A stretch of DNA of 64,000 nucleotides, from the NCBI RefSeq assembly GCF_030816475.1, contig NZ_JAUSXF010000001.1, positions 1,736,001 through 1,800,000 on the forward strand. Direction: 5' to 3'. The translations under genes and the position numbers were made by a program. The DNA comes from Arthrobacter pascens. Its GTDB lineage: Bacteria > Actinomycetota > Actinomycetes > Actinomycetales > Micrococcaceae. Shown piece by piece: positions 13,716 to 54,092 of this stretch (positions are counted from its first letter, which is position 1; every line of letters starts with the position of its first letter). The notes under the pieces were generated by a model that made no database searches, was not told where the DNA came from, and saw only the letters and a program-made list of their open reading frames with translations.

Positions 13716-13972
13716 TGTGAGATCGGAGGCTAGTTGGCGATTTGAACACTAGTTGGCGAAACGGGCCTGAAAAGTTGGCGAAAACTGGCCTAGTTGGCGG
13801 TTGAGACCAATTGCCGGGCCGGGGGCAAGCTGGTGATTCGCCGAAAAGTCAGCGGATTGACACACGACGGCTTAAGAAATCCATGTCGTGGGTGTGAGAT
13901 TCCGTCTATTTGACCTTGTTCCGTACATGACCGGATTCCGATCTACTTGGCCGTGTTCCGTTTTAGTTGACG
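13716..13972 (+). repeat. Transposon end next to nrdF with dense TnsB-site array
   Basis: After the terminal TGTGAG come CTAGTTGGCG at 13730-13739 and 13749-13758, the core AGTTGGCG at 13773-13780, and CTAGTTGGCG at 13790-13799. The spacing is 19-22 bases. Looser copies are CTACTTGGCCG (13943-13953) and TAGTTGACG (13964-13972). Two related 15-base stretches at 13910-13924 and 13947-13961 share TTG-CC-TGTTCCGT. Four closely packed sites recall the right end of Tn7, which is also the end nearest its target gene. The rest of 13800-14275 holds no recognisable gene. Confidence 0.88.
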
Positions 13973-14275
13973 CAGCCATCTCTTTCTTCTGGGTAACTTG
14001 ACATTCGGTCCATCGGACAATCGAGGACGAGCGTAGGTTTGCCGTAAACGTAACGTCATTCTGCTACGTCCGGCGCCCTTGTCATCCAAATCGCGGGGCA
14101 GCAATGGACGGAAGTGGCTGAGTGGTGCTTGCTTAGGTTTCGCATCCGTATGGCAGCTGCTGAGGATCGCGATGCCGACTCTGGCGGGGTCACGAGAGAA
14201 CTCTCCGGGTTTGGATCTAAATATCATGGCCCGAGGGTGGCCACGACGAGCAGCAGACTACTATTGGGGACACGC

Positions 14276-15313
14276 ATGGCGACTAAGTATGGTTACAGGC
14301 TCTTTACGGTGAAAGCGCATCCGGGGTTCGGTCAGACACCGAAGAAGTTCCCGGATGCAAAAATCGGCGAGAAGCTTCTCCAGAAATCCATCATCCAAGT
14401 ATGCAACTCGGTGAAGGGGCACACTGAAACTGAGCCGCTTCGGTACCGGGAACGGTCCACCGACACCCGGGCCCCTGCAGCTGCTGGGCGGGAAGACACC
14501 ACGCCATTCGTGCGGTTGACGCACTGGGCTCAGAGCGATCGCCGCTTCGACTTCCGGTTCATGCATGGGCGAAAGGGTAGCCACTCTACGGCGATGGCTG
14601 CCCAGTCCGATGAAGACACGGAGCTCGACGAGAAGGCTCCGTCCAACGAATACCGGGCCTTCCTCTACCTCCCGAAAGCAGGGGACTCCGCCATCTTCGT
14701 GGCAGAAGCCCGCAACCAGATTTGCCCAGGCGAAGACCTCTTGAGGCTCCTAGGTGTCACGTCCATGCGCATGGACGAAGCCAAGTCGGAATCCGAACGA
14801 ATCGGATGGTGGCGGTTTGTACCCAAACGGGTGAGCGATGAAGTCCAGCTCACGCAGTTTCTGAGAAACGGAAGTGCATCCTATCTTGAGCTGACCAAAT
14901 ACATGGTGGCACCGTCGGGTCGAAGGAAGCAGAAGTCCGTTCGGCTCCGGCAGGATGGGCTGCCATCCAATAAGGGGCAAGCGATGGCGAAGGCCCTGAT
15001 TGCCAAATGGTCACCGCTCACGGCGGAGGAAATCGGTGCGGAGGGAAAGCCTCCCAAGGGGGCGAGCGACGTTCTGCGAGTGGCCGCACTCATGGACGTA
15101 AAAGTCAGTAGGGACTATTACGATGATGCTGGAATAGGGTGGGAAGGCGCAGACGGCTCGACCCAGTTCTTCTCACCCACAAGTCTTGGTGATCCTTTCA
15201 CCTACCGTGTGGGCTCGCCGGGTGTCAGGCCGAATGACGTCCAACTCCGGCAGCATGCTGAGTCCACGCTCGACCACTTGATGGAGCCGCTCAGTATTGA
15301 GCTAGACCTATAG
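14276..15313 (+). CDS. Unrecognised cytosolic protein, first gene of a two-gene cargo unit
   Basis: Product of 345 residues with no signal peptide or membrane segment. I chose ATG 14276 (MATKYGYRLFTVKAHPGF); the open frame reaches back to 14114 but that part overlaps the transposon end region and looks non-coding. A hydrophobic strand-rich middle (EYRAFLYLPKAGDSAIFVAE) and a region rich in Lys/Arg follow. I do not recognise a family. The gene is followed after 20 bases by a membrane protein on the same strand, behind a good AAGGAAAGG site. A soluble sensor plus a membrane effector in a transposon full of defence genes suggests an anti-phage pair, similar in layout but not visibly in sequence to Kiwa. 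Confidence 0.7.
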   Translation: MATKYGYRLFTVKAHPGFGQTPKKFPDAKIGEKLLQKSIIQVCNSVKGHTETEPLRYRERSTDTRAPAAAGREDTTPFVRLTHWAQSDRRFDFRFMHGRKGSHSTAMAAQSDEDTELDEKAPSNEYRAFLYLPKAGDSAIFVAEARNQICPGEDLLRLLGVTSMRMDEAKSESERIGWWRFVPKRVSDEVQLTQFLRNGSASYLELTKYMVAPSGRRKQKSVRLRQDGLPSNKGQAMAKALIAKWSPLTAEEIGAEGKPPKGASDVLRVAALMDVKVSRDYYDDAGIGWEGADGSTQFFSPTSLGDPFTYRVGSPGVRPNDVQLRQHAESTLDHLMEPLSIELDL

Positions 15314-15333
15314 CAAGGAAAGGAAACGCGACC

Positions 15334-15891
15334 ATGGATCGACTGTTTCCACTTGCTCTACTCCGGGGACACTTCAAGTCCCTGGTTCTCAATGAAGTCT
15401 GGATCGTGCGGCTCCTCGTCCTCGGTGCCGTCCATGGCATCCCGCTACTGATTGGAGTATGGAGCTGGGCCAACGGCTTAGACAGTAAGGTGCTGGCGCC
15501 AACTCTCACCGCGATGTCCCTGCTGGCCGGCGGCGCCCTCTCTGCATTCAGCCATCTCTCCACACTGAGGCTCAAACTCACAGAGCGACAGGACATCACG
15601 AGAAAGTCCGAGAAGCCGGATCGGCGGATGTTCGATGAATCGGCCACTCATTTGTTGTCCTGCGCGGTGGGTGCTATGGCTTCTGCGGCAAGCCTCGTCG
15701 GCTCCATAGTGCTTGTTGGCCAAAATCCTCGCCTTGAGGGATTTGGCGCAGCTTGGATCGGGTGGATAGCCTCGCTCACGTTCACGTTGTTCTGGATCTC
15801 GGTCCCGAGAATTTACCTCTCGTACGTGAACATCAACGCTGTAGATTCGAGCATCAATGGGACCCATCATGGCGTAACTGTTGATGACTGA
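15334..15891 (+). CDS. Four-helix membrane protein, second gene of the two-gene unit
   Basis: Product of 185 residues with about four hydrophobic segments (roughly residues 25-45, 55-72, 105-128 and 136-156) and polar ends, so an inner-membrane protein. It begins with ATG 15334 behind AAGGAAAGG, 20 bases after the preceding gene, and is probably co-transcribed with it. The family is not recognised; small multi-helix membrane proteins in defence pairs often act as pore-forming effectors, which is only an analogy here. Confidence 0.7.
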   Translation: MDRLFPLALLRGHFKSLVLNEVWIVRLLVLGAVHGIPLLIGVWSWANGLDSKVLAPTLTAMSLLAGGALSAFSHLSTLRLKLTERQDITRKSEKPDRRMFDESATHLLSCAVGAMASAASLVGSIVLVGQNPRLEGFGAAWIGWIASLTFTLFWISVPRIYLSYVNINAVDSSINGTHHGVTVDD

Positions 15892-17769: not shown

Positions 17770-18249
17770 ATGGCCATTACTGCCATCGTGAGTTATACGA
17801 ACATGTGGAAACAGACGCTTATCTTGACCAACACTGAACATCCCGATTGGCGATGCAACACTTGTTCGGCAGACACAGACCGGACGATCTGGCGCGATAA
17901 GGGCACACTCCCGAATGGCGATCCGGCCGGATGTTGCGACATGTGGATTCCTTGGTGTGACGAAGCTGGCGGTTTCCTCGACCACCACATGATCCTGAAG
18001 AGCGACGGCTCAGACGCCCCCTTGGCGGATATTTGGCAGGCGCGCCACGACGACGGCGTCTTCGTTCGCTGGTTAGACCACGCGGAGTACCCCAAAATCC
18101 GCTCACACATCGGGGCGTTGAAATTTGCGGATGCCAGCACCATATTTACGGATTGCCCGATGAATGGGTTGCCCGATGGATGGCGATGCATTGGGCCCAG
18201 TGGGTTGGCAGCGTGCCATGTGAATGAAGCCATGACACTGCGGTCTTGA
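17770..18249 (+). CDS. Hypothetical protein, 159 aa
   Basis: Starts with ATG 17770 behind a strong GGAGGGGG site. The product is soluble and rich in Cys, Trp and Asp (CNTCSADTDRTIW, PAGCCDMWIPWCDE, DCPMNG), suggesting metal binding, but no family is recognised. Its last 104 bases overlap the end of the convergent NACHT ATPase gene. Such a long antisense overlap makes one of the two 3' ends suspect, and this gene is the less certain of the two. Confidence 0.5.
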   Translation: MAITAIVSYTNMWKQTLILTNTEHPDWRCNTCSADTDRTIWRDKGTLPNGDPAGCCDMWIPWCDEAGGFLDHHMILKSDGSDAPLADIWQARHDDGVFVRWLDHAEYPKIRSHIGALKFADASTIFTDCPMNGLPDGWRCIGPSGLAACHVNEAMTLRS

Positions 18250-21200
18250 TCGCCCTTGAGGCCAATTGTTTTGATTCCGCATGCGCTGCGGCGAAGTCCA
18301 GGAATCGGAGCGCCCATGTGGTTGCCTGTTCATCATTTTGTGGCGAATACCATCCTCGGACCGGCATATCTCCTTTATCGGGATGTTTGCCTGCCAAAGT
18401 TAGTAACGCCGATAGAACTTCATTCATTTCGTCAAAGGAACGCTCACTTACGACTTTGCTCATCATGAATGTTAAGGGGAAGGTCCAATCGTAGGAGTCC
18501 GATATTGCGTCCCTGAGTGTTTGAATGATAAAGGAAGTGGGCATAAGTCCTACTTCATAAGGTAACCAGCCTATTCCGCCCATCCACCAATACCGGGGGT
18601 ATAGATCATTGTCGTTGAGCCTCACGACTTCCAGCAGCGTTATCCCTTGAACCTGGCCGGGATGTTGCATGCCCCATTGAACCGCGATGTGGTATTCCTC
18701 AATTTGCTCGACTGTGAGACCGGGGGCATCTTTTTCGCCTCCCAACAGCCGTGCGAGGGCTTCGTTGGCGCGCGTAGCGCTCCAGCCGGAGGGAAAGTCC
18801 GGTCGTCCGTTGATTTCCGGAGGTCTTGCCCAAGCCCCGATACGAGCCCAGGGCGAGAGAGCTCGAAAAGGTTCGAGCGCTGCTGGAGGACAGAATCTGG
18901 CGACCGCAGATGCGATCTCAGGAGGCGTCTGGGGGTTATGGAGCGAGGCGGAGATTACGTCCGCGGGGAGGTCGAGGAGATCCCATGGAACTTGAGCATG
19001 TGGATCAGCGAAGTACAGAAGTGCTTCGTGGGGCTGTTGGTGGAGTTCAAAGGTGGCCCGAACCAAGTCGCGAAAGCTTGGATGTTTTGCATATTGGGCT
19101 GCTGCCAGGAACTCGTGTTGCCGGGGGTAATCGTTTGCGCTTTTCTTGGCTGCTTCCAGGAGTGAGGTGATCGCCTCAGTGCTGGCATTCTGGAATACAT
19201 GGTTGAACCGATACGGCGTGTTCTTGAAAGGGTCGGCTATTAATAAATCAATGGCTTGTTTCTCGGCGGTGTTTTGATCCAATTTTGCCATCGCGCCTAA
19301 GTATGCTGCCTTGGCCAAGCCCATCTTGTCTAATTCCATGAGGATGGGCATCCACTTTTCGTCAAAAGCTTCCGCATCTATCCATGATTCTATGTTGTAG
19401 GACAGGTGCTCGAGGTCTTCGAATTGCATATTATTGATAGTCATTTCCAGGTGCTCGCGAAGAAGCGTTGGGTCCAGCATAAAAGCACTGTGAAAAAGTC
19501 CGTTATCGACCAGTCGTGCAATTACTTCATTGCGGCGGTGGGTAGTGTCGCAGTGCGTGAGCAGTGAAGCCGCTGCTCGGAGGAGTGTGTCATCCACGTC
19601 TCCTTCATCCACGAAGTCAAGGAGGTCGTCTATGACCCGCGGAAGAGTGCCTCGCTCGTTAATCCGCTCGGCGGCGTGTTCGAGGATCACGGTCCAGGTT
19701 GGGCGTAGGAGGGCGGACCTGATGTAGCGGCGAGCGGTGTCGGGATTCTTCTCGACAAGCTCGCCCAAGGCACGGCCGGTCAGGTGTTCCTGAATGGTGC
19801 GGTGGATCCACCGATACGGCTGGGCGAGATCATTCGAGGATGAGAGCTTGCTTTCGTGAGGCACGAGGAGTCCGTCGTGCTCTACGAAGCTGGCCATCTC
19901 GTCGGAGACGTTACTCTGTCGCCCCCAGTCTCCTATCGAGATGGTGAGGGCCAATGAAGGCTGCGGGAGGCCCCCCGCTGCTTGGTTGCTGGGGGTGGAG
20001 TCTGGACGGGTGCCCATGAACCAGGCGAGCTCTGTGGCGATCCGCTCTCTCTCCAATATCTTGGCGCTGCTGCGCCAGAGTTGTCTCGGTTTCCATTTCT
20101 GGGCAAGGAACAGCGCGATGTACTGGGTGTAGACACCGTATTTGGTGTTGCTTACCTGCTCGGTTTCGGCCACATAGCAAATGAAGCCTGCCAGGAGCGG
20201 GATGCTCGACAGATCGGCGAACTTGGCGGACCGGATTGCTTCCAGGGCACGGTTTTTCCCGGGCTGGCCTGCGCTGAACCAGTCGCCGACGAACGCTTCT
20301 GGATCTTCCATGGGTCCGAGCCCGAGCTCGATGTCGATGAACGGAGGCCTCACGTAGCCGGCGTACCGCGATGAAAGTGTGATGCTCCCTGCCGCTGATC
20401 GGGCGAGGATGTGCAGTACTCGTTCGACTGCCGCTCGACGTTCCGGAAGGGAGACCTCGTCCAGCCCGTCGAAAGCGAGCAGGAAGTCCGGATTGTCGGT
20501 GATCTGTGAGGCTAGAGCCGCTCTGGCCTCATGGGGGCAAAAGAAGTTCAGGCGCAGGTCTGAAGCGAGGATGACCGCCTCGGCTGCATCCTGGAGACTC
20601 GTCGGCGGACGCTCGGAGGCGATCCTGCCCAGATCGTCGAGCCGCATGAAGAGCGCCGGCTTCTGGTCATTGATCACGTGGTCCAGGACCAGGGCCTGCA
20701 GGACCGTTGTCTTTCCCTGTCCGGGATCGGCGAGGAGGATGCACCGGGGGTGCTCCGCAGCGAGCTTCAGTGCCGGGTGGAGATCTCCCAACGCCGGGGC
20801 GCCGTCGGAATAGAGCCCCTCGTTCCGCGCCTGGTCAAGCATGGACTTCTGGAGCACCTCGCCGGCCCGCAAGACACCGGCCAGCCGGAGCACGTCCAGA
20901 TGCGCTGGATAGTGGACAGGGAGCTCCCGCAACGTTTCTGCGGCATCGAGGAGGTATGTGTCAAGGAGACTGTTCCTCGACCTTTCGGCATCGCGTATCG
21001 CCCGTCGCAGCCCTTCAACGGTCGCAGGCCCGCTGCTCAGAACCGTGCCGAAACTGCACAGTGCATCAGTTTCCCGCTCTCCGGCGCGGAGCCCCCTGCA
21101 CAGCTGGAGAATCCAGTCCTCTCCGAAAGGCTTGTCCCCCTTCAGGGTGGCCGCGATGTCCTGCGCGATATTCTCCATAGCCTTCGTGAACTTCGCGTGC

Positions 21201-21466
21201 TTGCCGTCGACGATCCGCGTCAACGCAATTGCATCTGCGAGTGGGAGATCTTCTCGTCCGGCGATTACGATGACGGCGATGGCGCTTGCGCTCGGTACCC
21301 ATAGGTCGGCGAGGGAAACGTCCTGCGACTTTCTTCGGCCCCCCTTCCTCAGCTCCTCGATCGCCCCGCCGTGGCAGACAATCAATGACGCCATGAATTG
21401 CTCGGCCTCGTTCGGTCGGATCGCAGAACCCCTAACCGACTCGGTGCCATTCCTCCCCATGCCCAT
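18146..21466 (-). CDS. NACHT/STAND-type NTPase (operon gene 4)
   Basis: Large protein of 1106 residues. Residues about 20-230 form an unrecognised helical N-terminal domain, the place of the effector or signalling domain in STAND proteins. The ATPase follows with Walker A DPGQGKTT (247-254) and the NACHT-type Walker B LLAFDGLDEV (329-338), a sensor-like SSRY, and a WIHRTIQEHLTGRAL winged-helix stretch. The remaining 500 residues are helical, HEAT-like repeats suited to ligand sensing. I chose ATG 21466; the open frame runs on to 22231 but that part is the shadow of the kinase-like gene. It lies 67 bases after the kinase-like gene on the same strand. Role proposed: phage sensing or execution, as in Avs-type defence. 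Confidence 0.88.
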   Translation of the reverse strand: MGMGRNGTESVRGSAIRPNEAEQFMASLIVCHGGAIEELRKGGRRKSQDVSLADLWVPSASAIAVIVIAGREDLPLADAIALTRIVDGKHAKFTKAMENIAQDIAATLKGDKPFGEDWILQLCRGLRAGERETDALCSFGTVLSSGPATVEGLRRAIRDAERSRNSLLDTYLLDAAETLRELPVHYPAHLDVLRLAGVLRAGEVLQKSMLDQARNEGLYSDGAPALGDLHPALKLAAEHPRCILLADPGQGKTTVLQALVLDHVINDQKPALFMRLDDLGRIASERPPTSLQDAAEAVILASDLRLNFFCPHEARAALASQITDNPDFLLAFDGLDEVSLPERRAAVERVLHILARSAAGSITLSSRYAGYVRPPFIDIELGLGPMEDPEAFVGDWFSAGQPGKNRALEAIRSAKFADLSSIPLLAGFICYVAETEQVSNTKYGVYTQYIALFLAQKWKPRQLWRSSAKILERERIATELAWFMGTRPDSTPSNQAAGGLPQPSLALTISIGDWGRQSNVSDEMASFVEHDGLLVPHESKLSSSNDLAQPYRWIHRTIQEHLTGRALGELVEKNPDTARRYIRSALLRPTWTVILEHAAERINERGTLPRVIDDLLDFVDEGDVDDTLLRAAASLLTHCDTTHRRNEVIARLVDNGLFHSAFMLDPTLLREHLEMTINNMQFEDLEHLSYNIESWIDAEAFDEKWMPILMELDKMGLAKAAYLGAMAKLDQNTAEKQAIDLLIADPFKNTPYRFNHVFQNASTEAITSLLEAAKKSANDYPRQHEFLAAAQYAKHPSFRDLVRATFELHQQPHEALLYFADPHAQVPWDLLDLPADVISASLHNPQTPPEIASAVARFCPPAALEPFRALSPWARIGAWARPPEINGRPDFPSGWSATRANEALARLLGGEKDAPGLTVEQIEEYHIAVQWGMQHPGQVQGITLLEVVRLNDNDLYPRYWWMGGIGWLPYEVGLMPTSFIIQTLRDAISDSYDWTFPLTFMMSKVVSERSFDEMNEVLSALLTLAGKHPDKGDMPVRGWYSPQNDEQATTWALRFLDFAAAHAESKQLASRAIKTAVSWLHSHGTLPTHWAQCIAIHRATHSSGNP

Positions 21467-21533
21467 AGCCGAAGTATGCCAGCAGCAGGCCTGGAAACCG
21501 TTGAAAGACCCCTTGCACACCGCGGGCAGCAGA

Positions 21534-22397
21534 TTACGCCACTTGATGCAGGCGGGTGAGGATGGGCAGGTATTCGAGAGGTTCCGGGCGGCCGCCTGGT
21601 TTCCCGAGCCCGTCATTGAGCAGCTGTTGCAGCTGTGTGTGGGTTGCGAGCGGAATGAGGGCCTGCCGCCAGTCAGGAACTGTGCCTGCGGCAGGCTGGG
21701 CCATGGACGCTGAGAGGACACGCAGGATCCACAAAGCCAGTAGGTATCGGTCTGTGGCCAAGGTATTGATCCCAGGACTGTAGGGGTCTGACCACCGGGG
21801 CTGGTATCTGGGCTTGAGCGTTGGATCTCCTTCTCGGCGGATCCCGTCGCAGTCGAGCAGGAACACCGCCGGTATCCCGTCGGGGCTGAAAGCGAGGTTG
21901 CGCGAGTTGATGTCCCCGTACACGTACCTGTGACGGGCGAGGACATCCATCGCCTGTGCGAAGTCGCGCAGGACCGCGAGCCGTTCCCGAAGGGAGAAGT
22001 TTCCCGCGGCGCTTTCGGGGCGGGGCAGATGCTGTCCCTCGCGCAAGTGGTAGGCGCCCCCGTGCTCATAGTAGAAGCGAAGCTCGGCCCGCGGGATGAG
22101 CACTCCCACGGTGATGCCGGAAGCGTCATCGATGACCCGGTGGAGCGGCCAGCTAAAGAAGGTCCGCAGGATTTCCCGGTCCGACCCACGGACGGCCCAC
22201 TCGCGGAAGTCGATGAGAGACTGCAGGGCATCGGTGTCGTGCGGGGTCAGGGGCTGGGCCAGCAGCTTGCACAGGTAGGGGGTGTTCGAGCACGCCACGA
22301 CCGTGCCTTCCAGTCCCTGCGTCGCCGCGGCGGCGGGCAGGGACCGGAAGGCAAGGGCCGAGTAGCGAACCGTCGTCCCTGGACGCAGAGTCAGCAC
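21534..22397 (-). CDS. Protein-kinase-like protein (operon gene 3)
   Basis: Protein of 287 residues with a reduced protein-kinase fold: a candidate ATP lysine at Lys45 (LCKLL), the catalytic loop YGDINSRNLAF (Asp162, Asn167) and the metal-binding segment LLDCDG (Asp182/Asp184 in place of DFG). The C-lobe is short. It starts with GTG 22397, behind AGGAGG, inside the end of the phosphatase gene. With the VWA and PP2C genes upstream it makes the TerY-P triad (VWA, phosphatase, kinase) known from comparative genomics and reported as an anti-phage system. The target of phosphorylation is unknown; the next gene's NACHT protein is a candidate. Confidence 0.85.
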   Translation of the reverse strand: MLTLRPGTTVRYSALAFRSLPAAAATQGLEGTVVACSNTPYLCKLLAQPLTPHDTDALQSLIDFREWAVRGSDREILRTFFSWPLHRVIDDASGITVGVLIPRAELRFYYEHGGAYHLREGQHLPRPESAAGNFSLRERLAVLRDFAQAMDVLARHRYVYGDINSRNLAFSPDGIPAVFLLDCDGIRREGDPTLKPRYQPRWSDPYSPGINTLATDRYLLALWILRVLSASMAQPAAGTVPDWRQALIPLATHTQLQQLLNDGLGKPGGRPEPLEYLPILTRLHQVA

Positions 22398-23407
22398 TGG
22401 GGGTGTCCTCCTTCTTTGCTGCGCCGGGAGGGGCCCTCCGGCGTGACCTCGGCAGGGACTGCCGGCGTAGTGCCGACGCCCGGGCGCATGCGGCCGTCCT
22501 CCTCGGTGCCTGTCGGTTTGGCCGGTGCGGCTCTGAAGAGGCAGAAGGCTGTACGATCGTCGCGGGCACCGGCCCGATCGAAGCCTACGTCGGCGATGAA
22601 CTGCCAGATCGTCGGCATCGACTCCCAGGCGGTCGCCAGACCGTGCCCTACCGGGTTCGTGGAGACCAGGTGGCTGTCGATGCCGTCGGTTGCGAGCATG
22701 AGCATCTCTCCAGGCATCCACAAGTAGCTGCCCCCGGCGCGTGGTTTTCGGTACTGGGGAAGCGGCCGGACGGAATTGGCGTACAGCTCGTTCACGTCCT
22801 CGGAGGTCAGCCGCTCCCAGTCGGGATGCCCGTCTTTGACCCTTCCGGGGCGGTACACCGAGGCGCGGGTATCTCCCCATTCGGCGAGCTGCACCTGCCA
22901 AGGCCCATCGTCCTCCCCGATGTCGATGAGCAGCACACCGAGTGTTGTGGCGAAGAGCTCCACCGGCTGGGCTTGGCGGTCAGCCGCGAGCTGGAGGGCG
23001 GCCGAAACAGCTGCTGCGACCTCCGAGGCATTGCCGCCGGCTGCGGCGACCGTGACCGCCGTCCGTGCTGCCGTCTCGGAGCCCACGTGCGACAGAGGAG
23101 CGGATCCCAGACCGTCTGCCACCGCCACTGCGATCCGGCCGGGCTCGGTGGAGAAAGCATAACTGTCCTGGCGCGTGGCGGCCCCCGACTGGTGGGATAG
23201 GCCCTGGATGCTCGCAGCGCACATCGCGACCTGACCGCCAGCGAGGGTCCCCGTGTCGGCGACGATGGCATGCTGGCCCAGAGAACTGCGTGCGAGCGAC
23301 AGAGGCACCGTCGGGACGGCGGAGGGCTTCCCGAAGATGCGTGGAAGGATCCGAGCGCGGCCGGAGTGCTCCCCGGCCGCCACCGTGTTGCTACGGACCC
23401 CGCTCAC
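22391..23407 (-). CDS. PP2C-type serine/threonine phosphatase (operon gene 2)
   Basis: Protein of 338 residues. PP2C motifs are RQDSYAF, the metal-binding VAVADGLGSAPLSHVGSETAAR, LLIDIGEDDG and the later MLATDGIDSHL plus ARDDRTAFCL, holding the expected aspartates. The start at GTG 23407 overlaps the VWA stop (GTGA). The last 35 residues are polar and probably disordered. It should counter the kinase-like partner encoded next. Confidence 0.88.
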   Translation of the reverse strand: MSGVRSNTVAAGEHSGRARILPRIFGKPSAVPTVPLSLARSSLGQHAIVADTGTLAGGQVAMCAASIQGLSHQSGAATRQDSYAFSTEPGRIAVAVADGLGSAPLSHVGSETAARTAVTVAAAGGNASEVAAAVSAALQLAADRQAQPVELFATTLGVLLIDIGEDDGPWQVQLAEWGDTRASVYRPGRVKDGHPDWERLTSEDVNELYANSVRPLPQYRKPRAGGSYLWMPGEMLMLATDGIDSHLVSTNPVGHGLATAWESMPTIWQFIADVGFDRAGARDDRTAFCLFRAAPAKPTGTEEDGRMRPGVGTTPAVPAEVTPEGPSRRSKEGGHPQC

Positions 23408-45184: not shown

Positions 45185-46342
45185 CTAACCGCCGGCGCCG
45201 GCCTGACTGATGGCCTGCAACCCCACCTGCAGTGGGATCCGTTCCTGCTCGATCCTGAAAGGCCCTGGCCAGCCAGGGTTGGTCAGCGTGGCGTAGAGAG
45301 CCTCCTCGGTCGCCGTCAGCATCGGCAGGTTTTTATGCTCCGGGGCGGTCAGTTCCCGCCCTTTCACGTCAGTGAAGGAGCCGAAGTGCCGGTAAGCCTC
45401 GTACGCCGCAGTGTCCATAAGCACGGATTCGGCCATCACCCCGGCCTTCCGGAACTGGTGGAGAATCTCGAAGCCGGCTGCGTCCATGTCGCCCCAGTAA
45501 AAGATGGCCGGGCATCCGGTCAGCCAGGGCAGCGTTCCGGCCGTTTCGGCAGCGCTGAACCCTGCACCCTCAACAGCTATCCCGCCGGGAACAGGGGGGA
45601 AGTGGATGGCGGTGTCCTTGTTTTCGGCGATGACCACCGTGGACGGGGTGTATGCAGGGGTCATCGTGTCGCCTCTGGACACGGAATCGTGTCGTCGTCC
45701 GCTGGTGGCCAGATAAGCCGGGTCGAGGTAGGCGAAATGCAACCGGGACGGGTGCTGCGGCAGTAAGCCCAGGTCGGCCTTGCCGGAGAGCTGCCTCAGT
45801 TCCGGGCCGTGGCTGTTCAGCCATTTAGCGTGCAGGCCCGGGATCGGCACTTGCCGGGGTGTCAGGCCATGGGCCTCATGCTCCCGAAACCAGGCGGCCG
45901 CCATGTTGAGGAGGCCGAAATCCTGGTCAGTGTATTTGTCGACCGAACGCACAACGGCGGAGAGATTTTCCAGACCGGGGTGCAGCTGCTCCAGGATTGC
46001 CGCCCGTGACTGTCCGCGACGATAGCGGTCCCGCCATTCCCGCCCGGCGACCAGCACGGCGGTGCCGATGTCGGGGACGATTACATGGGTCGGGATCTGC
46101 TGCGGGGTGCCCAGAACCCTGCGCGTCTCAACGGAGACCGTGAGTCCGTTTTCCTGTGCCCAGCCACGGATTTCTGCGGCCCGGCGCTGGAAGTCCGGAA
46201 ACCCGGCGCCCAGCTCCGTCCCGGAGACGCGGCCGAGAGGGACCGTGTGCGGCCAGGACGCCAGTTCCCTGGACGCGTCCAGATGCCACGTGGAGGCCAG
46301 CCGGCGCTGGATGTCCGCGGTGACCTGGGCCGGGCCCTTCAT
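45185..46342 (-). CDS. jetD: Wadjet nuclease subunit JetD
   Basis: Protein of 385 residues that cuts the DNA in the Wadjet plasmid-defence complex. The N-terminal part matches DUF3322 (TVPLGRVSGTELGAGFPDFQ) and the C-terminal part DUF2220, with the toprim-type acidic motifs VVIAENKDTA and FYWGDMDAAGF. It overlaps the end of jetC by ATGA. It is the last gene of jetABCD, in the usual order. Confidence 0.92.
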   Translation of the reverse strand: MKGPAQVTADIQRRLASTWHLDASRELASWPHTVPLGRVSGTELGAGFPDFQRRAAEIRGWAQENGLTVSVETRRVLGTPQQIPTHVIVPDIGTAVLVAGREWRDRYRRGQSRAAILEQLHPGLENLSAVVRSVDKYTDQDFGLLNMAAAWFREHEAHGLTPRQVPIPGLHAKWLNSHGPELRQLSGKADLGLLPQHPSRLHFAYLDPAYLATSGRRHDSVSRGDTMTPAYTPSTVVIAENKDTAIHFPPVPGGIAVEGAGFSAAETAGTLPWLTGCPAIFYWGDMDAAGFEILHQFRKAGVMAESVLMDTAAYEAYRHFGSFTDVKGRELTAPEHKNLPMLTATEEALYATLTNPGWPGPFRIEQERIPLQVGLQAISQAGAGG

Positions 46343-49300
46343 ACGCCGGGCCTCGGGACGGACCGGACTTCCTGGACGTATGAGTACCCGGTGACCGGGT
46401 TCTTGGTCATCGAAAGGGCGAGATCCGCGTACGGCTCCAGCGCGGTGACCTTATCGAGGGGCGCGCCGATGAGCAGCTGGAACCCCAGGCCCTTCCACGC
46501 CTCAACAGAGCGGCCGGCGAATTCGCTGTCCGATTTCACGAACCCTTCGTCCAGGAAGACCGGTGCGAACCGGGGCCGGGTGCGGCTTTCGTCGCCGAGC
46601 TGGAACCGCAGCGCAGCACCGACGATGAATGCGACCAGCTCCTGCGATTCGCCGCCGCTCTTGCCGCCCAGGGACGAGTACGTTGCCAGCTGCTGGCCTT
46701 GCGCGTCAATGCTTACCGCTGTGATCTCCACATGGCGGCGCACATCCAGGAAGGTGTCCCGCTCTCCGTGCCGGCCGCCGTCATCGCTTTTCCGGATCCG
46801 GTTCATAAATTGCCGCAGCCGCTGGAACTGGGCGTCCACCTGCGCCTCGGTGAGGTCCCTGGTGGCGCCGGATGAAAGCTCCCGCAGTTCCTTCCGGAAC
46901 GCGCCGACCCGGTCGCTGCTGAGGAGCCGGAGGTCAATTTTCAGCCGGTCCCGGCCCGCGCCGAACGCCAGCGTGGAAAGGATGGCGTTGACCGGGACGA
47001 GCCGGCTTTGGATCTCCTCCACAGACGTCTCGAACGCTCCGTTGAGCGGGACGAGGTCCTGGCCGGACCATTCCGCGAGCCGGCGGACCCATTCCCGGCG
47101 CCGGTCGTGAAGGCCCGTAGTGACGATGTCGTCGTAGATGGTCTGGAAGTCTTCCACCGATGCCATAGTGGTGCCCAGGTTGGGATCATCCCAACGGTCC
47201 AGGTAGCTTTCAAACAGGCCCGTCAGGGCCTCCGTGGCCCGTTTCGCCTCCCGCTGGCAGGAGTCCTGGTCGGCGTTCAGCTTGTCCATCATGCGTTTGA
47301 TGTTGCCGCCGAAGTCGGTCAGGCTCTCCGGGTTTCCAACCGCAGCGAAATGGGCCGTCAGGAATCCGTTGTGAACATCGCAAAGTTCGGCTGCGTCCGC
47401 CCTCAGCTGCTCAGAGACCAGGAGCAGTTCCTGCCGCCGAAGCGTCAGCCGCGCCTCTTCGTCGGCCAGCTGATCGACCCGCGACTTCGCGGTGTACCGG
47501 CGCCCGCGCGCCTCGTCCAGCTGCCCGTTCAGCTCCTCTTCCTTCTCCCGCAGTTGCGTGAGGATGTCGCTGGAGCCAAGGATGCGCTGTTCCTCCGCCT
47601 GGACCCTGGCAATGCCGTCCTCGACGGAGGCAACGTCAATGTCGGCCCATTCCCGGGCCAGGATGTATTCGTGGGAGCTGCGGAAGTCCCGGAGCCGGCG
47701 GGCCGCGGCATCGATGTCCTCAAGCCTGCCGGCGTAGTCGGTGAGTTCAGCCTCGCACGCCTCCAGTTCCTCCGTGATCGCGGCAATCCGGCCCTTGTTG
47801 GAGAACCCGAGGATGGGACGCCCGGCCCCGCCGTGCGCCCCGGACCGGCCGTCGCGCGTCTGCCCGCTGAGCGTGACCCGGTACCCGCCGCCGCCCAGGT
47901 CGGCGGACGATTCCACGCAGAGGGCATCGAGGCTGGCGTCCCGGACCCTGGTCTGGACCCAGTGGCTGAACGGGGAGTCTTTGAAGACGAGCTTCCCGGA
48001 CACCCTGCCCGGGACACCGTTGACGTGCCGGTAGGCGCGGCGGGGAACGCCTTCGAAGCGGATCCGCACGGTGTCGCGGATCGGGTCGATCGCTCGACTG
48101 AAACGTTCAAGCTCGGTTTCGTCGACCAGCATGATCCGCGACACCGGAGACAGTGTCACCTCGGCGGCGGTCCGCCACTTTTCCTCGCCGGCGGCAACGT
48201 CGATCAGCTCAGCGACGAAGGGCAGGTCGTCGGGATCAATACCGGCGGCCGCGGCAAACCGCAGGCGTGCCTCGTGCAGTTGTAGCGGGACGAGTCCTTT
48301 CCGGCTCTGCAGGGAAGCGCGCTCGGCCGTGAGTTTGCTGGCCCGGTCCATGACCGGGTAGCGCTCTTTGCCGATCTCTTCTTTCTCCTCGGCCAGAAGC
48401 CGCTCCCGGCGGTCGTACCCGGCCAGGAAGACCCGGGCCGCGGCGGTGGCGGCGTTGAAGTCCTCCTCCGTCTCCACGACGGTGTCAATTACAGCGGCAC
48501 GGTCATCGAAGGCACCGCGGAGCTCTGCTACCCGGGGCAGCCTCGCGCGGAACGTCTCCAGCTCCGTCCGGAGACGACCCAGTTCGTTGCCGCCGTTGTT
48601 CCGCTGTGCTTCCTGATTCTCTGCCAGTTGCACTGCGAATGCCGCCTCGTCCTCGGCGGCTGCCCGCAGGAGCCGCTGCTGGGCGTCGGTGTTCTCCGCG
48701 TTGGCGCTCAGGACGTTGTCGATAAGCCCGGTCTCGGTCCGGTTCTGCCAGACCGCCAGCGGGGACGAGGGGCCACCGATGATCTCCTCGACCAGCGCGG
48801 CGTCAGCGGTGGCCCGTGCCAGGGTTTCGCGGATCTTGGGCAGCGCAGCCAGGGCCTTGCTCTTCTCCGCCTCATTCTGCATGGACGCGTACGAGGCCTC
48901 CAGGTCAGCGAAGTGGGCGAGCGCCCGGTCGGCGGCGGCGTAGGTCCCCGGCTCTTCCAGGACCAGGGATTTGTAAAGCCCGTCCACGTCCGTCACCTGC
49001 TGGCCTGCCTGAATACGGGCCAGGAGCCGCAGGGCCTTCTTTCCGTCACCGTTGGCGCCGATCCCAAGCCGGGCGAAAAGCACGTCGGAGAAGGCGTTGT
49101 AGGTCGGATGGACGTGGGCTCCGGGGATGGCCGTCTCGAGCGCCCGCTTATCGAATTTCGCTGCGGACACCGGTTCGAGTTCGCGGAGGTCCAGGTCTTC
49201 GTCGAAGGTGACCATCTTGGAGATGACGTCGCTGAAGACGGAACCGCCGCGGGGCAGGTAATAGCAGCGCAGCGCTGTGAACTTCTTGCCGGTGTCGCTG

Positions 49301-49722
49301 ACGAACGTCATGCCCACCGCACCCCAGGTGTTGGAGTTTTCGCCCCGGAGCACCCGGTCGCGCATCTCACCGGTGCCGGATTCACGGTGAGCATCGGTCT
49401 TTCCGCGCAAGTAGGTGACCACGTTGCGCTGGTCGACGCCGCGGGCCCGGCCGGATGTCGCGTCGTTGGAGGCGCCGTTGAACGGCACATCGGAGGGCAT
49501 CATGAGGGCCAGGTAGGCATCCATCAGGGTGCTCTTTCCGGTTCCGGACGCGCCGGAGAGCAGGGTCGCTCCCGAAGCGAAAGCCACTTGGGTGTGCCCC
49601 TGGAAGCCGCCCCAGTTGATGACCTGCAGGTGCAGGGCCCGCCATTGAGCTGTATCGGCCGTCGCCGTCAGCTGCTCAACGGGCTCCTCAACGCCTTCCA
49701 TCTCGAACGTCATCTGCGTCAT
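46339..49722 (-). CDS. jetC: Wadjet SMC-like ATPase JetC
   Basis: Protein of 1127 residues, the motor of the condensin-like Wadjet complex. Walker A is SGASGTGKST (56-65) and the start of the head also has QVINWGGFQGH. Two long coiled-coil arms flank a central hinge-like zone with RVTLSGQTRDGRSGAHGGAG. The C-terminal head has the ABC signature SGGESQE and Walker B PVFLDEGFVKSDSEF. It overlaps jetB and jetD by 4 bases each. Such complexes extrude DNA loops and recognise small circular DNA. Confidence 0.95.
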   Translation of the reverse strand: MTQMTFEMEGVEEPVEQLTATADTAQWRALHLQVINWGGFQGHTQVAFASGATLLSGASGTGKSTLMDAYLALMMPSDVPFNGASNDATSGRARGVDQRNVVTYLRGKTDAHRESGTGEMRDRVLRGENSNTWGAVGMTFVSDTGKKFTALRCYYLPRGGSVFSDVISKMVTFDEDLDLRELEPVSAAKFDKRALETAIPGAHVHPTYNAFSDVLFARLGIGANGDGKKALRLLARIQAGQQVTDVDGLYKSLVLEEPGTYAAADRALAHFADLEASYASMQNEAEKSKALAALPKIRETLARATADAALVEEIIGGPSSPLAVWQNRTETGLIDNVLSANAENTDAQQRLLRAAAEDEAAFAVQLAENQEAQRNNGGNELGRLRTELETFRARLPRVAELRGAFDDRAAVIDTVVETEEDFNAATAAARVFLAGYDRRERLLAEEKEEIGKERYPVMDRASKLTAERASLQSRKGLVPLQLHEARLRFAAAAGIDPDDLPFVAELIDVAAGEEKWRTAAEVTLSPVSRIMLVDETELERFSRAIDPIRDTVRIRFEGVPRRAYRHVNGVPGRVSGKLVFKDSPFSHWVQTRVRDASLDALCVESSADLGGGGYRVTLSGQTRDGRSGAHGGAGRPILGFSNKGRIAAITEELEACEAELTDYAGRLEDIDAAARRLRDFRSSHEYILAREWADIDVASVEDGIARVQAEEQRILGSSDILTQLREKEEELNGQLDEARGRRYTAKSRVDQLADEEARLTLRRQELLLVSEQLRADAAELCDVHNGFLTAHFAAVGNPESLTDFGGNIKRMMDKLNADQDSCQREAKRATEALTGLFESYLDRWDDPNLGTTMASVEDFQTIYDDIVTTGLHDRRREWVRRLAEWSGQDLVPLNGAFETSVEEIQSRLVPVNAILSTLAFGAGRDRLKIDLRLLSSDRVGAFRKELRELSSGATRDLTEAQVDAQFQRLRQFMNRIRKSDDGGRHGERDTFLDVRRHVEITAVSIDAQGQQLATYSSLGGKSGGESQELVAFIVGAALRFQLGDESRTRPRFAPVFLDEGFVKSDSEFAGRSVEAWKGLGFQLLIGAPLDKVTALEPYADLALSMTKNPVTGYSYVQEVRSVPRPGV

Positions 49723-50393
49723 GCTTCTACCCCTTCGGTGGCGGGCGCCGTTGTCTGGCCGCCGGTCCCGGCCTGTTCGAGCCAGTCCAGGAGCTCCCTC
49801 AGCCGCGGTACAGGCATGAGCACTTCGATGACCGGAGAGATCCGCAGCCGCTCAGGGTCCGGGGTGGTCTGCAGAACCCGGCTCTTCAACAGGCTGTCGA
49901 TGGCGTTATCGGCCCGGCGGGCGTCGCCGGAATGGTCGGTGGCATTCGCCGGCCGGTAGGATTCCACGGCACCGCGCAGTTCGTCCCGGTCCACGAAAAC
50001 TTCGGTGGTGGTGCCGACATGTTCGCTGCGGAACCGGGTCCGCAGGAAGACCATCAGGATGGTCTCCTCCTTGGTGTACGTGGCGTTCCTGAGAAGTGTC
50101 GGGTATTTCCGGCCGTCCTCGGCGATGACCTGGCGTTTGAAAGCGACCTCGCGTTCGCGGTCCACGTGCAAGTGAAGGAACAACTCGTTGAGCCGGCGGA
50201 CAATGGACGACTCCGACTCCATCAGGGTCTTCCACTCGGCGGAATGGTCTGCACCGCTGATGTAGTGGTTTTTCAGGATCGCCGTCAGGGCCCTGCGCTC
50301 ATCAAAGTCCAGTTCCCCGGTGTCGCCAGGGAACACGGCCGTGCTGGTGCTGTCCGCCCAGAATCCGTCGCCGTCGTCAGGGTTGCTGCTCAT
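49719..50393 (-). CDS. jetB: Wadjet kite-like subunit JetB
   Basis: Protein of 224 residues of the DUF4194 type (MukE-like). Central features are winged-helix-like: FDERRALTAILKNHYISGAD, TILMVFLRTRFRS and the C-terminal SPVIEVLMPVPRLRELLDWL. It overlaps the end of jetA by 17 bases and the start of jetC by 4. It should bind JetA and the JetC heads. Confidence 0.9.
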   Translation of the reverse strand: MSSNPDDGDGFWADSTSTAVFPGDTGELDFDERRALTAILKNHYISGADHSAEWKTLMESESSIVRRLNELFLHLHVDREREVAFKRQVIAEDGRKYPTLLRNATYTKEETILMVFLRTRFRSEHVGTTTEVFVDRDELRGAVESYRPANATDHSGDARRADNAIDSLLKSRVLQTTPDPERLRISPVIEVLMPVPRLRELLDWLEQAGTGGQTTAPATEGVEA

Positions 50394-51894
50394 CGGAGCC
50401 TCTTTCGTTGTAGGCGGCTATGGCGGCAACGTTCTCTGCGGTCAGTTCCAGCAAGGGGACCAGGAACTCTCTTGTGGTGCCGTCGGGCCGGATGGTGAAG
50501 AAGGATTCGGTCTGGGTACGGGTCTCCGCGGACCCTGCCTGGGCGAAGATTTGGAGCAGGCCCAGGATCTCCACGGGCCGGCGCAGATGCTCGGGGAGGG
50601 TGTTGAACATCTCCCCGGCCGTGAGCGCCGTTCCGGCGGCGTAGCTTTCCACAACGGCGTTGCGCATCTCTTGCAGGAGCGGCCCGCCTTGTTTGCGGAT
50701 CTGCTCCAGGTCCAGCGGTGCGGGCGCACCCGCGGAAGTGTCTTCCAGCGCCGGCGGGGCAACGTCGGCGGCAGGGTCGTAGAAGTTGGCCTTTAGGTAG
50801 CTGATGTCGAGTTCGTCCGGGGTGAGGTCAACCGGAACGGCGGCACGCCGGGGCGCCGTCTCCATCCACGTCCCGAGGCTTCTGCCTACCCGGCGCAGGA
50901 GGTCGTCCAGCTCACGGTCCCTGAGCGCGTCATGGTTCACGATGTGCTCGCGCAGTGTCGTAGTCAGTTTCATCCGGCGGTCCAGGACGTCCCGGATGCC
51001 CTTTCTGATCAGCGCCACCGTGCCGAGGAATTCGCGTTGTTCAGCTGTAGCGAGCACCGCAGCGAACGGGTGCTCGACGATGGTCTGGAGGTCGGTGCGC
51101 AGCCCCAGCAGGAGCGCGTCATCTCGAAGCAGTTCGAAGGCGCCCTCGAAGGCTCTTCCCTCCGGTGTGGCACCCATCAGCTTGTCTGTCCGCAGCAGGT
51201 ACTCATCCAGGACTTCGCCGACGTTGCGGACCTCCGAGCGGAAATCGTTGATGATCTGGCGGTGCATTTCGCCGACGGATTCCTCAACCCGTTTGAAGTC
51301 GCTCGGCAGCTGGGAGATCAGGTCGGTCAAGTTGGCGTACCCATCCAGCATCCTGTCCTCGTCCATGACCGCCATTTCGGCACCTGAGGCAAGCTCGTCC
51401 CGCTGGGCGGTCAGGGCCGCGATCTGCTCATCCAGACGGTCGATGCGGGCCTGCCGGTCCGGGTTCGCTTCGGTAGCCCACGCCCGGACGGTGTCAAGGA
51501 TGGTCGCGATACGGGACTCACTGATCAGTGCCCGGTCCTTGGCCAGACTGTTGGTCAGCTTCAGTGCCTCGAGCGTGTGGGAGGTAAGGGAGTATTCTTC
51601 CTCGCCGTCCTCTCCGACGGAGCGGAACAGCCATTTGTGGTTCATCCATAGAACGCACTGGGCCCGGCCGGACGCGGCGGCGCCCAAATCCTCACCTACG
51701 GCCCGGAGCTCTCCCAGATAGGCGTCGACCTGGGAGTGGAGCCGGTCCGCTTTGACCCGTTCCCGGTCCCCGCCGAACAAGGCGTTGAATACGGCGAGGG
51801 CCAGTGGGGCATATTTGCGGTCAAGGAGACGCAACGTCGGCTTATCAAGGATTTCGCGAATGCGTGCAACTTCACCCTCGATGCCGCTCATCAT
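50377..51894 (-). CDS. jetA: Wadjet kleisin-like subunit JetA
   Basis: Protein of 505 residues of the DUF3375 type (MukF-like kleisin), the marker of type I Wadjet. The N-terminus IREILDKPTLRLLDRKYAP is typical, followed by a coiled-coil segment around residues 140-180 (RIDRLDEQIAALTAQRDELA) and a helical C-terminal part. I chose ATG 51894 (MMSGIEGE) behind GGGGGAAGG. The start overlaps the stop of a short DUF2397-like gene, so translation of the two is coupled. Confidence 0.92.
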   Translation of the reverse strand: MMSGIEGEVARIREILDKPTLRLLDRKYAPLALAVFNALFGGDRERVKADRLHSQVDAYLGELRAVGEDLGAAASGRAQCVLWMNHKWLFRSVGEDGEEEYSLTSHTLEALKLTNSLAKDRALISESRIATILDTVRAWATEANPDRQARIDRLDEQIAALTAQRDELASGAEMAVMDEDRMLDGYANLTDLISQLPSDFKRVEESVGEMHRQIINDFRSEVRNVGEVLDEYLLRTDKLMGATPEGRAFEGAFELLRDDALLLGLRTDLQTIVEHPFAAVLATAEQREFLGTVALIRKGIRDVLDRRMKLTTTLREHIVNHDALRDRELDDLLRRVGRSLGTWMETAPRRAAVPVDLTPDELDISYLKANFYDPAADVAPPALEDTSAGAPAPLDLEQIRKQGGPLLQEMRNAVVESYAAGTALTAGEMFNTLPEHLRRPVEILGLLQIFAQAGSAETRTQTESFFTIRPDGTTREFLVPLLELTAENVAAIAAYNERGSDEQQP

Positions 51895-52391
51895 GTTCCT
51901 TCCCCCGTTGATACCGATGCTAAGCCACTGCGCCGACACGATGGTCCAGGCGTAGGCACATCGGTCGCGCCCAGCAGCTCGCGGGCGACTTCGCGGGCAC
52001 CGTCGCTGGCGCTAATCACCTCGTCGACTTGGCGGGCGACGCGACCGCCGAGCTTGGACACCTGATACCGGGAGCGTGAGCGGACCCATTCGGCCACGGT
52101 GGCGGCGCGGGCGTCGCGAACAGGCCGCACCAGGTTGCCCCACTGTTCCAGCTGGCGGCAGCGGCTTTCGGGGTCGTCGACACTGATCTGGGCGCCGAAG
52201 CGTTCGAGCGCCGACTGCGCCTCTCCTGCCGACAGGTCGGCCAGGAGAGTGGAGGAAAAGAGGCGCATGATGGCGATGTACTCTTCGGCATTGTCAGCGG
52301 TCACGTACCGGTACAGATCCCGCCGCTCCGGCGCTGGATCCGCCTCCGCCTGCGTTGTCCCAGCGTCTATCAAGGTGTCCCCTCTGCTCAT
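51891..52391 (-). CDS. Truncated DUF2397-like protein coupled to jetA
   Basis: Protein of 166 residues starting at ATG 52391 (MSRGDTLIDAGTTQ). Residues about 25-130 match the beginning of DUF2397 proteins: RYVTADNAEEYIAIMRLFSS, LEQWGNLVR, TVAEWVRSRSRYQVSKLG and GRVARQVDEV. DUF2397 proteins are normally about 500 residues and are the JetA-like component of other Wadjet types. Here the protein ends early with an unrelated tail (VPTPGPSCRRSGLASVST). The stop TGA overlaps the jetA ATG. Either it is a deletion scar or an added short subunit of this operon. Confidence 0.65.
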   Translation of the reverse strand: MSRGDTLIDAGTTQAEADPAPERRDLYRYVTADNAEEYIAIMRLFSSTLLADLSAGEAQSALERFGAQISVDDPESRCRQLEQWGNLVRPVRDARAATVAEWVRSRSRYQVSKLGGRVARQVDEVISASDGAREVARELLGATDVPTPGPSCRRSGLASVSTGEGT

Positions 52392-52524
52392 TGCTGCCGC
52401 GGTCGGGTCGCTCGCCCTCGGTCGGTAGATATTCGTTGTCCGGCCTACAGTAGGGCAGCGGTGCGACACTTTGGATCAGTCGCGGCAAGGCGTCCTTGGA
52501 TGAAAGTATCACGATCTGGCAAAT

Positions 52525-52695
52525 ATGTCGCTGAATAGCCTTGACGAATGTCCATCCTATATCTATAATGCAACCTTCAACGCGGGGCTGCCCGTTGACT
52601 GGACAATGAATGACGCTGCTGTGCGGGAACAAGGCACGTGGTGGTATCCGACGAAGAATGGGGCCCTCATGCCGGACCACCTGACGCCGGCATAG
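52525..52695 (+). CDS. Small frame with a half zinc-ribbon motif of the TniQ repeat type
   Basis: A 56-codon frame from ATG 52525 to TAG 52695. The end reads GTWWYPTKNGALMPDHLTPA. This copies the WWHPTKNG-I-P segment of the TniQ zinc-ribbon repeats at 35439-37583. No CxxC remains after it. It is probably a relic of a similar zinc-ribbon gene (possibly an older tniQ) near the far transposon end. The surroundings 52392-53196 hold no other gene that I can support. Confidence 0.35.
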   Translation: MSLNSLDECPSYIYNATFNAGLPVDWTMNDAAVREQGTWWYPTKNGALMPDHLTPA

Positions 52696-53196
52696 GAGGC
52701 CAAAGTGCATTGTGAAGCATCCGCGCGGTGAGCGGGCGATACCCGATGAGCCGCGCACCCTCTGGCCGCCGGCAGCCAAGGAGATCACCTGCCTGCGTGT
52801 CGCGCCGCGATCATCGGTGCAGACGACTTCGGGAACCTATGTAGACGGGTCCAGGAACAGACAGCTTGAGCCGGGTAGGGGCCGGGGGCTTCGGGTGAGG
52901 CAACGATTAACGGTGAGACCACAGAGGGTTGGTTAAGGGCTGTGTCCGTGGGTACGATCCCGTAGCCAATGGCCCTCCCCGGCCTGATCGTTGATGGTCC
53001 TCTTCATTGAGGGCGACTGAATGCGGCGCGTAACATGCAATGCCGCAACGTGTGTGCGGCGAACGCCCTGGAGGGCGGGGGCGAGGTAAAGTCTCGTTTT
53101 GTGGCGGCCGGGGAGCTGGCCACGCTCAGTAGCCTCGATGCAGTGGAACCGTTGACGGCATGCCTGCTGAATCGGGCAAGCAGGGGGAGAAACACT

Positions 53197-53888
53197 ATGA
53201 CCGCAGGCGTTGACACGTCCTTTTACTACCACTCGGATACTCCGACGGGAAAGGACCCCGACAAGCACAGCCCGACCCTGCGCAGGCACCACCAACTGCT
53301 GTGGAGCAAGGATCTGCCCTACGGCGGAGGACGCTTCGATCTGGTACAAGAGCCCGGCAGATACCTCGTGCACTGGTCCGAGCTGGGTGTTTCTTTCTCG
53401 CCAGCGACGCCATAACGACCAGGCTGCTGGGAAAGGCAGCCAGCGTCATAGCGAAGATTCCGGCCGCTGAGCTGCCTGAGTATGGTGGCTACACCGCCGG
53501 AAGCACCCTTGTTTTCCCCGGCAACATCGTTGACGGGAAACAGACCATCAATGGTGCGCGCGGATTCCACCCCAGCATCGCCGACCGCATCGACGTGACC
53601 TTGGAATGCATCCGCCGCGACTATACAGGCGAGCTGCCGAACAAGCTCGGAGAGGTCCTGGACAGGTACTCAAACTTTTTTGCCCTGTTCAAGGACTTTG
53701 ACGGGTACGTTGAATTCTTCCTGCTGCAGGATCTCATCAATAAGGACGGCACCATCCGGTTCTTCCACCCGTTCGACAACTTCAGCACACCGGTGGTTCC
53801 AAAGACCCCCGACGAATACCTCAAGTATTTACAACGCAGCAGGGATTTCATCCGTGCACGCAACAAGAGGATCGACGCACAACCCTGA
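53197..53888 (+). pseudogene. DUF6994-like gene, right copy, with a frameshift
   Basis: ATG 53197 (MTAGVDTSFYYHSDTPTG), behind AGGGGGA, opens a frame that matches the left copy (SPTLRRHHQLLW). It ends early at 53415. The rest of the family pattern continues in the next frame from about 53388: CFFLASDAIT, ARGFHPSIADRIDVTLECIR, YSNFFALFKDFDGYVEFFLL, up to 53888. The shift lies near 53384-53390. Joined, the protein would be about 230 residues. It is the last gene before the far transposon end and reads towards it, mirroring the left copy at the other end. Confidence 0.75.
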
Positions 53889-53989
53889 CCTTCTGATCAG
53901 CAGGTTCGAAAGCTACAGTGAATACCCGCTGAAGACTGGGCAAGTTCGTGAAGCGAGGCGCGTTGGTACTCCGCAATGCTTATCGATTT

Positions 53990-54092
53990 CGCCAACTAGG
54001 TCAGTCAGCCGACTTGTGCAGTAGTCCACCAATCCTCGGAATCACGCTGGTCCGCATCTGGCGTCTCTCGCCAACTAGCCGGCAGCCTCACA
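53990..54092 (-). repeat. Far transposon end with spaced TnsB sites
   Basis: The outermost site CGCCAACTAG (54069-54078) precedes GGCAGCCTCACA, the complement of the TGTGAG terminus, which ends at 54092. Another perfect CGCCAACTAG lies at 53990-53999 and a looser AGCCGACTTG at 54007-54016. The sites are the reverse complement of those at the nrdF side. Three sites spread over 90 bases resemble the looser left end of Tn7, while the nrdF-side end is dense. Confidence 0.88.

Follow-up and report, generated by a model that had tools for sequence, protein, structure and literature searches.

Which gene serves a Tn7-like transposon as its attachment site, and which of its proteins reads that site, are questions raised by a stretch of 64,000 nt from Arthrobacter pascens (NZ_JAUSXF010000001.1, positions 1,736,001-1,800,000). 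The whole of this stretch is here called the window, and its genome is G000 in the genus comparison. An element of 40,377 bp, read directly from the sequence, spans positions 13716-54092 and starts 7 bp 3′ of the stop codon of nrdF, an essential DNA-building gene. The element has paired ends, a 5-bp duplication, a tnsABC core and, directly behind tnsC, a TniQ-DUF4379 fusion gene, and its lineage was observed to use nrdF repeatedly. We are reasonably confident that the element is complete and Tn7-like, belongs to an actinobacterial lineage and attaches at the nrdF 3′ end, and that its TniQ-DUF4379 protein acts like TnsD.

Element ends and insertion point

12734..13708, plus strand: nrdF, the probable attachment gene (3′ ~200 bp conserved in 195 of 198 genus genomes)
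13711..13715, no strand: target-site duplication ACTAC, left copy (sequence)
13716..13800, plus strand: left end on the nrdF side (three CTAGTTGGCG copies, one AAGTTGGCG)
53989..54092, minus strand: right end with two CTAGTTGGCG copies (sequence)
54093..54097, no strand: target-site duplication ACTAC, right copy (sequence)

Read inward, the left end runs from 13716 as TGTGAG-ATCGGA-GGCTAGTTGGCG and the right end from 54092, on the minus strand, as TGTGAG-GCTGCC-GGCTAGTTGGCG, and ACTAC bounds both (13711-13715 and 54093-54097). A preliminary description of this DNA had named the same boundaries, the inverted TGTGAG-N6 ends and ACTAC on both sides; all were confirmed in the sequence, the boundaries exactly to the base. 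CTAGTTGGCG is present six times in the window, at 38090 and otherwise only within the two ends (five copies), and the CTAGTTGGCG and AAGTTGGCG copies of the left end are likely TnsB sites. Inverted ends with several TnsB-type sites together with a 5-bp duplication mark the element as Tn7-like, and the insertion at nrdF, not glmS, separates it from Tn7 proper. The paired ends and duplication are no chance match, because seven further elements show the same arrangement (G130, G009, G151, G108, G106, Cryobacterium tagatosivorans and marine actinobacterium PHSC20C1).

In G016, G021 and G004 the DNA found to the right of the element is reached ~75 to 210 bp past the nrdF stop, compared with >40 kb here, and this synteny backs both sides. 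The exact ACTAC-GATCAGG empty site of the check suggested earlier was not read, no sufficiently close relative having been found among the genomes compared.

Transposition core and TniQ-DUF4379 protein

31484..32293, plus strand: TnsA, actinobacterial type (NCBIfam NF033179)
32211..34316, plus strand: TnsB (Pfam Mu-transpos_C)
34313..35449, plus strand: TnsC (TniB and AAA_22 matches)
35439..37583, plus strand: TniQ-DUF4379 fusion, proposed target selector (divergent TniQ domain, CCCH motif at residues 95-118, five DUF4379 treble-clef repeats)

TnsA reached 124.6 bits against NF033179 (TnsA_like_Actin; cut-off 110). TnsB matched Mu-transpos_C above and rve below cut-off, as a DDE/Mu-type transposase, and its residues D277, D382 and E418, invariant across 9 aligned relatives, fit the pattern of a DDE triad, which we take to be the catalytic one. 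The TnsC/TniB ATPase gene adjoins tnsB and is directly followed by that of the TniQ-DUF4379 protein. The tnsA, tnsB and tnsC genes of the preliminary description were borne out by these family matches, and its tniQ, which lacks a Pfam TniQ match, by profile alignment of the N-terminal part.

Pfam TniQ was abandoned as a route to identifying the selector, since it gave no match to the window protein; it matched one of 11 close relatives, at 0.0059. Two profiles were compared instead, one from the aligned TniQ parts of 20 relatives, cut to their first 300 residues, the other from 23 aligned proteins whose genes follow tnsC at other actinobacterial loci. They matched with 99.0% probability and an E of 6e-18 (for that single pair); none of 20 column-shuffled controls did better than 0.5% and E 0.11. 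All ten of the 23 comparison proteins that were scanned matched Pfam TniQ (E up to 0.017), six of them above cut-off. The alignment, with its shuffled controls, supports placing the selector in the TniQ/TnsD family of target proteins.

The CxxC-CxxH (CCCH) motif, a feature of the N-terminal domain of TnsD, is present in 18 of 23 TniQ-DUF4379 sequences. Three of the five without it are short at the N-terminus (G026, P0011 and P0013), P0009 has Q in place of the final H, and the fifth is from Frigoribacterium (TniQ part beyond 330 residues searched). Across the 23 sequences the DUF4379 repeats number four to six, the first being weak in most.

nrdF as a recurrent docking site

The 3′ end of nrdF was located in 195 of 198 genus genomes, and TGTGAG occurs within 25 bp past the stop in 35 of the 198, the reversed pattern in none. 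At the family level, within 30 bp, TGTGAG was found in 29 of 395 genomes, representing 8 of 32 genera, and the reversed pattern in one genome. For orientation, a stretch of at most 1 kb past nrdF was read in 120 genomes of the genus, all 35 positives being included by choice; the first 300 bp hold TGTGAG 81 times in plus orientation (48 genomes) and 3 times in minus (3 genomes). Among the 85 genomes not selected as positives, it stands in plus orientation in 13 and in minus in 2.

TnsB was detected at E up to 1e-20 in 25 of the 198 genomes and is adjoined by TniQ-DUF4379 in ten: G000, G006, G009 (Arthrobacter liuii), G026, G035, G064, G106, G108, G130 (Arthrobacter sp. AK04) and G137. Nine of these ten cores sit at nrdF. 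Four have paired ends with a shared duplication there, namely G000 (ACTAC), G130 (GTTTC), G009 (CCCTT) and G106 (CCTGC; 42.7 kb), the two ends lying on different contigs in both G130 and G009. In the remaining five (G006, G026, G035, G064 and G137) a left end, for which no right-end partner was found, lies at nrdF, and the core follows on the strand of nrdF at a distance of 8 to 50 kb; G026 and G137 have a broken or partial TnsB frame. The right-end search, requiring the exact 5 bp plus the terminal hexamer in 36 sequences, gave convincing pairs in two (G000 and G151), while G130, G009 and G106 were paired separately. Matches at G006 +17030, G028 +8263 and G000 +41356 were rejected as looking like chance.

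All six paired-end elements at nrdF (G000, G130, G009, G151, G106 and C. tagatosivorans) have the left end nrdF-proximal, at offsets of +5 (G151), +7 (G000, G130), +8 (G009), +28 (C. tagatosivorans) and +48 (G106). TnsB loci lacking DUF4379 but sharing a contig with nrdF were five, all >240 kb away (G047, G109, G153, G192, two more in G106); this count leaves aside TnsB loci on other contigs or without a listed nrdF place.

The G151 element (L143, 16384-19691) measures 3.3 kb, has the duplication TCTTT and contains no TnsB match; it was probably moved by the proteins of another element. In G035 a decayed TnsB/DUF4379 remnant (C1:999029-1001525) lies near nrdF with the intact core ~50 kb behind, and these are two elements in tandem.

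Related elements and the TnsB tree

A TnsB profile scan of named genomes returned 79 loci, eight of them with TniQ-DUF4379: Arthrobacter (3), Cryobacterium (2), Leifsonia, Frigoribacterium and PHSC20C1. In C. tagatosivorans an element of 22.9 kb with the duplication CGCAC starts 28 bp past nrdF, and in C. aureum a TGTGAG end stands 27 bp past nrdF, close to the edge of a contig. The PHSC20C1 element (21,328 bp, TGTCAG ends, duplication CGAGA) lies upstream of a gene that reads as ZnuA-like. The ends of the Leifsonia and Frigoribacterium elements were searched and not found. A common znuA-like site for these three was considered and dropped, the Leifsonia core and znuA-like gene being on different contigs.

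The TnsB tree suggested in the preliminary description was built as a quick one of 58 rows (27 genus rows and 31 of the 79 named loci), with a long-branch warning that includes G026 and G137. The 15 TniQ-DUF4379 rows fall together on one side of a branch (Shimodaira-Hasegawa-like approximate likelihood ratio test, SH-aLRT, 97), and the three rows without nrdF form one subgroup (100). G106 and the two Cryobacterium elements group with G064 (+43, unpaired), apart from G000, G130 and G009. Because this grouping matches the differing offsets, two lineages seem to target nrdF with different reach.

Stacked left ends and unity of the element

13893..13972, plus strand: block TGTGAGATTCCGTCTATTTGACC... 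within the element, resembling a left end of another class

Left ends that fall into six motif classes (classes named by eye) follow one another behind nrdF, and an inner end at +85 to +111 from nrdF was seen in 12 of 36 sequences, mostly without a located right end. Stacks of unlike left ends were observed in G006, G009, G019, G150, G170 and others, the window included; they record insertions that recurred and have mostly decayed. Matching duplications flank the outer element in G009 and in the window, which places the inner end within an outer element that is intact. The simplest reading, simpler also than stacked rival ends serving as an immunity device, is that elements with other offsets inserted in a nested fashion.

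The block at 13893 and the inner ends in other genomes also fit a composite 40-kb interval, in which an element of another class, older or younger, has its left end at 13893 and part of the cargo is separate. No convincing right end with GTGGG was found in the window, however, the sole match lying outside the element and starting CGTGAG, and we regard a composite as unlikely, though it deserves to be kept in mind. The single complete element of the preliminary description accordingly stands as regards ends and duplication, but its interior is perhaps not one arrival.

Proposed target selection by the TniQ-DUF4379 protein

The selector most probably recognises the conserved 3′ end of the nrdF coding sequence in the way that TnsD recognises glmS. 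A reading of the nrdF end by the DUF4379 array is proposed by analogy, since Tn7 TnsD, which shares the CCCH zinc motif, binds the end of the glmS coding region according to the available part of PMC2918618. The TniQ-DUF4379 protein would bind the conserved sequence coding the C-terminus of NrdF, chiefly through its DUF4379 array; the TniQ half would load TnsC just downstream of nrdF, and TnsAB would excise the element and insert it past the stop codon, leaving nrdF intact.

In more distant comparisons the array is the best-conserved part of selector and core; G006 and the window are 44% identical in the array, 37% in TnsB, 35% in TnsA, 30% in TnsC and 27% in the TniQ half. In the close relatives G130 and G009 it is not the best conserved, with 62-70% identity to the window in TnsABC, 53-56% in the array and 35-37% in the TniQ half. 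The gap between TnsABC and the TniQ half suggests that the selector was exchanged or is evolving faster between these elements.

Repeats at the same place in the array were 44-50% identical, compared with 33-36% between places, in a first group that also held the two G108 proteins (not at nrdF) and five database proteins without site data. Within nrdF elements, a second test gave a same-place excess of 6.5 points in 11 pairs and 9.4 points in 15 pairs; towards elements at other sites the excess was 3.5 to 4.5 points (6, 4 and 8 pairs).

That the TniQ half alone or a host factor picks nrdF, with the array binding TnsC, RNA or another protein, would agree with the protein of solved structure that is related to DUF4379 in sequence, a mitoribosome assembly factor (6sga and others, E 1.8e-4), which makes an RNA or protein role possible. 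It would also agree with the small same-place excess between the two nrdF lineages (1.4 to 9.9 points), both of which sit at nrdF, and with the DNA-binding determinants of Tn7 TnsD, distributed over the entire protein in the available part of PMC2918618. Against this stand the conservation of the array at distance and the co-occurrence of DUF4379 with nuclease-type names or domains in other proteins (P0014, P0060), and we find such a division of labour rather improbable.

DUF4379-array proteins away from TnsB and nrdF were also observed (L112-L139, e.g. G010, G167, G128 and G099). Some of them end in a VVRLREDDLP-like stretch, presumably reminiscent of VSR-type nucleases, and P0014 is named a VSR-type nuclease by its source.

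Several points weigh against selection of nrdF by the TniQ-DUF4379 protein. The window protein matches only DUF4379 in Pfam, and the Pfam TniQ family has no match anywhere in this genome. For five of the nine cases at nrdF the evidence is position plus a left end, with no right end paired to it. The tenth core, in G108, belongs to an element away from nrdF (C7:43080-83807, duplication GTTGC) with two TniQ-DUF4379 genes, one before tnsA and the other after tnsC (L072, C7:55001-75000); nrdF of G108 bears end remnants. Leifsonia, Frigoribacterium and PHSC20C1, relatives of microbacterial type, have TniQ-DUF4379 but NrdF only as a remote match (24-26%), and many DUF4379 proteins of the genus do not adjoin TnsB. 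The comparison of nrdF and other-site elements does not separate site from descent, because the repeat excess between the two nrdF lineages is so small. Finally, it is from association that we infer binding of nrdF DNA and directed transposition by the selector.

That nrdF is merely a permissive gap, a safe site after a highly expressed gene and not a recognised target, would accommodate the several end classes present there but is very hard to reconcile with the single orientation, also seen among the non-selected genomes, and the narrow offsets of the paired-end elements.

Selection of nrdF by the TniQ-DUF4379 protein may belong to a wider picture, put forward here tentatively and as somewhat less probable than its opposite. 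The DUF4379 array would be a modular DNA reader homing Micrococcales Tn7-like elements, its four to six ordered repeats reading the nrdF end, arrays of other repeats addressing other sites (PHSC20C1) and the same module serving in nuclease-type proteins. nrdF would be a landing pad contested by families with different offsets, where unlike left ends pile up since immunity acts within a family only. Target selection is the most wanted part of Tn7-like transposition for use. With TniQ fused to a countable set of small zinc modules, the attachment gene known and natural insertions numbering in the dozens, both DNA reading by such modules and their re-addressing can be tested directly.

Cargo

18146..22231, minus strand: 1361-aa protein, candidate STAND-like NTPase (weak AAA/nSTAND3/NACHT/HEAT matches, none above cut-off)
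22391..23707, minus strand: PP2C-type phosphatase (family scan)
23404..24147, minus strand: VWA-domain protein (family scan)
25469..26272, minus strand: CoiA-like nuclease domain protein (family scan)
29603..30544, minus strand: calcineurin-like phosphoesterase (family scan)
42076..44784, plus strand: PLD-like protein (PADLOC ZacB match 3.4e-13; Pfam PLDc_2 below cut-off)
45185..51939, minus strand: Wadjet type I operon jetA, jetB, jetC, jetD (PADLOC JetA1, JetB1, JetC1, JetD1)
53301..53888, plus strand: DUF6994 protein (family scan)

The cargo comprises a Wadjet type I system, with jetA to jetD all present and adjacent, plus other candidate defence genes. The STAND-like NTPase candidate, PP2C and VWA genes stand in a row at 18146-24147 without a PADLOC match and are possibly an undescribed defence or signalling system. 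No tRNA or Rfam match was found in the window. Cas families were absent among the open reading frames scanned (a subset), with no Rfam match and no search aimed at arrays of clustered regularly interspaced short palindromic repeats (CRISPR). The nrdF site marks a point of entry for variable defence islands, Wadjet among them, into the chromosomes of Arthrobacter and its relatives.

Comparison with known systems

The preliminary description had held a Tn7-like element to be unusual in Micrococcaceae. Rarity in Actinobacteria is ruled out by the survey PMC8649781, which in its available part describes an Actinobacteria-dominated Tn7-like clade and a Micrococcales element community, and is contradicted also by the existing NCBI actinobacterial TnsA subfamily, NF033179. 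Tn7-like elements from Actinobacteria, and Wadjet cargo in them, are already known from the same part of PMC8649781. Clade 2 of that survey (Benler et al. 2021) resembles the present element in its actinobacterial hosts, Tn7 core genes and defence cargo including Wadjet JetD. The likeness is one of description, not of tree placement, and the available sections name no nrdF site or DUF4379 and state that no Clade 2 element is experimentally characterised.

The TniQ-DUF4379 selector, the recurrent docking at nrdF and the stacked unlike left ends were not found in the open-licence PubMed Central (PMC) literature, where DUF4379 appears only in work on fungal gene transfer and introns and no article combines Tn7-like and nrdF. 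The main text of the Tn7 target-selector survey PMC10293859, as far as available, mentions neither treble clef nor nrd nor actinobact. The family NF033179 fits the TnsA found here, which exceeds its curated cut-off, but is silent on target selection.

With Tn7 the element shares separate TnsA, TnsB and TnsC with a TniQ/TnsD protein, a 5-bp duplication and an insertion point immediately behind the stop codon of a conserved gene, but it occupies nrdF and not attTn7/glmS. TnsD-like proteins of Tn7 and CRISPR-associated transposons have C-terminal helix-turn-helix domains in the available sections of PMC10293859, where the selector here has a DUF4379 array. TnsF of Tn6022 (Faure et al. 2023), as described in the same sections, is likewise a multi-zinc-finger selector working with TniQ, but is a protein of its own that contains an inactive tyrosine recombinase domain and targets comM, whereas the zinc array of the present element is made of DUF4379 and fused to TniQ.

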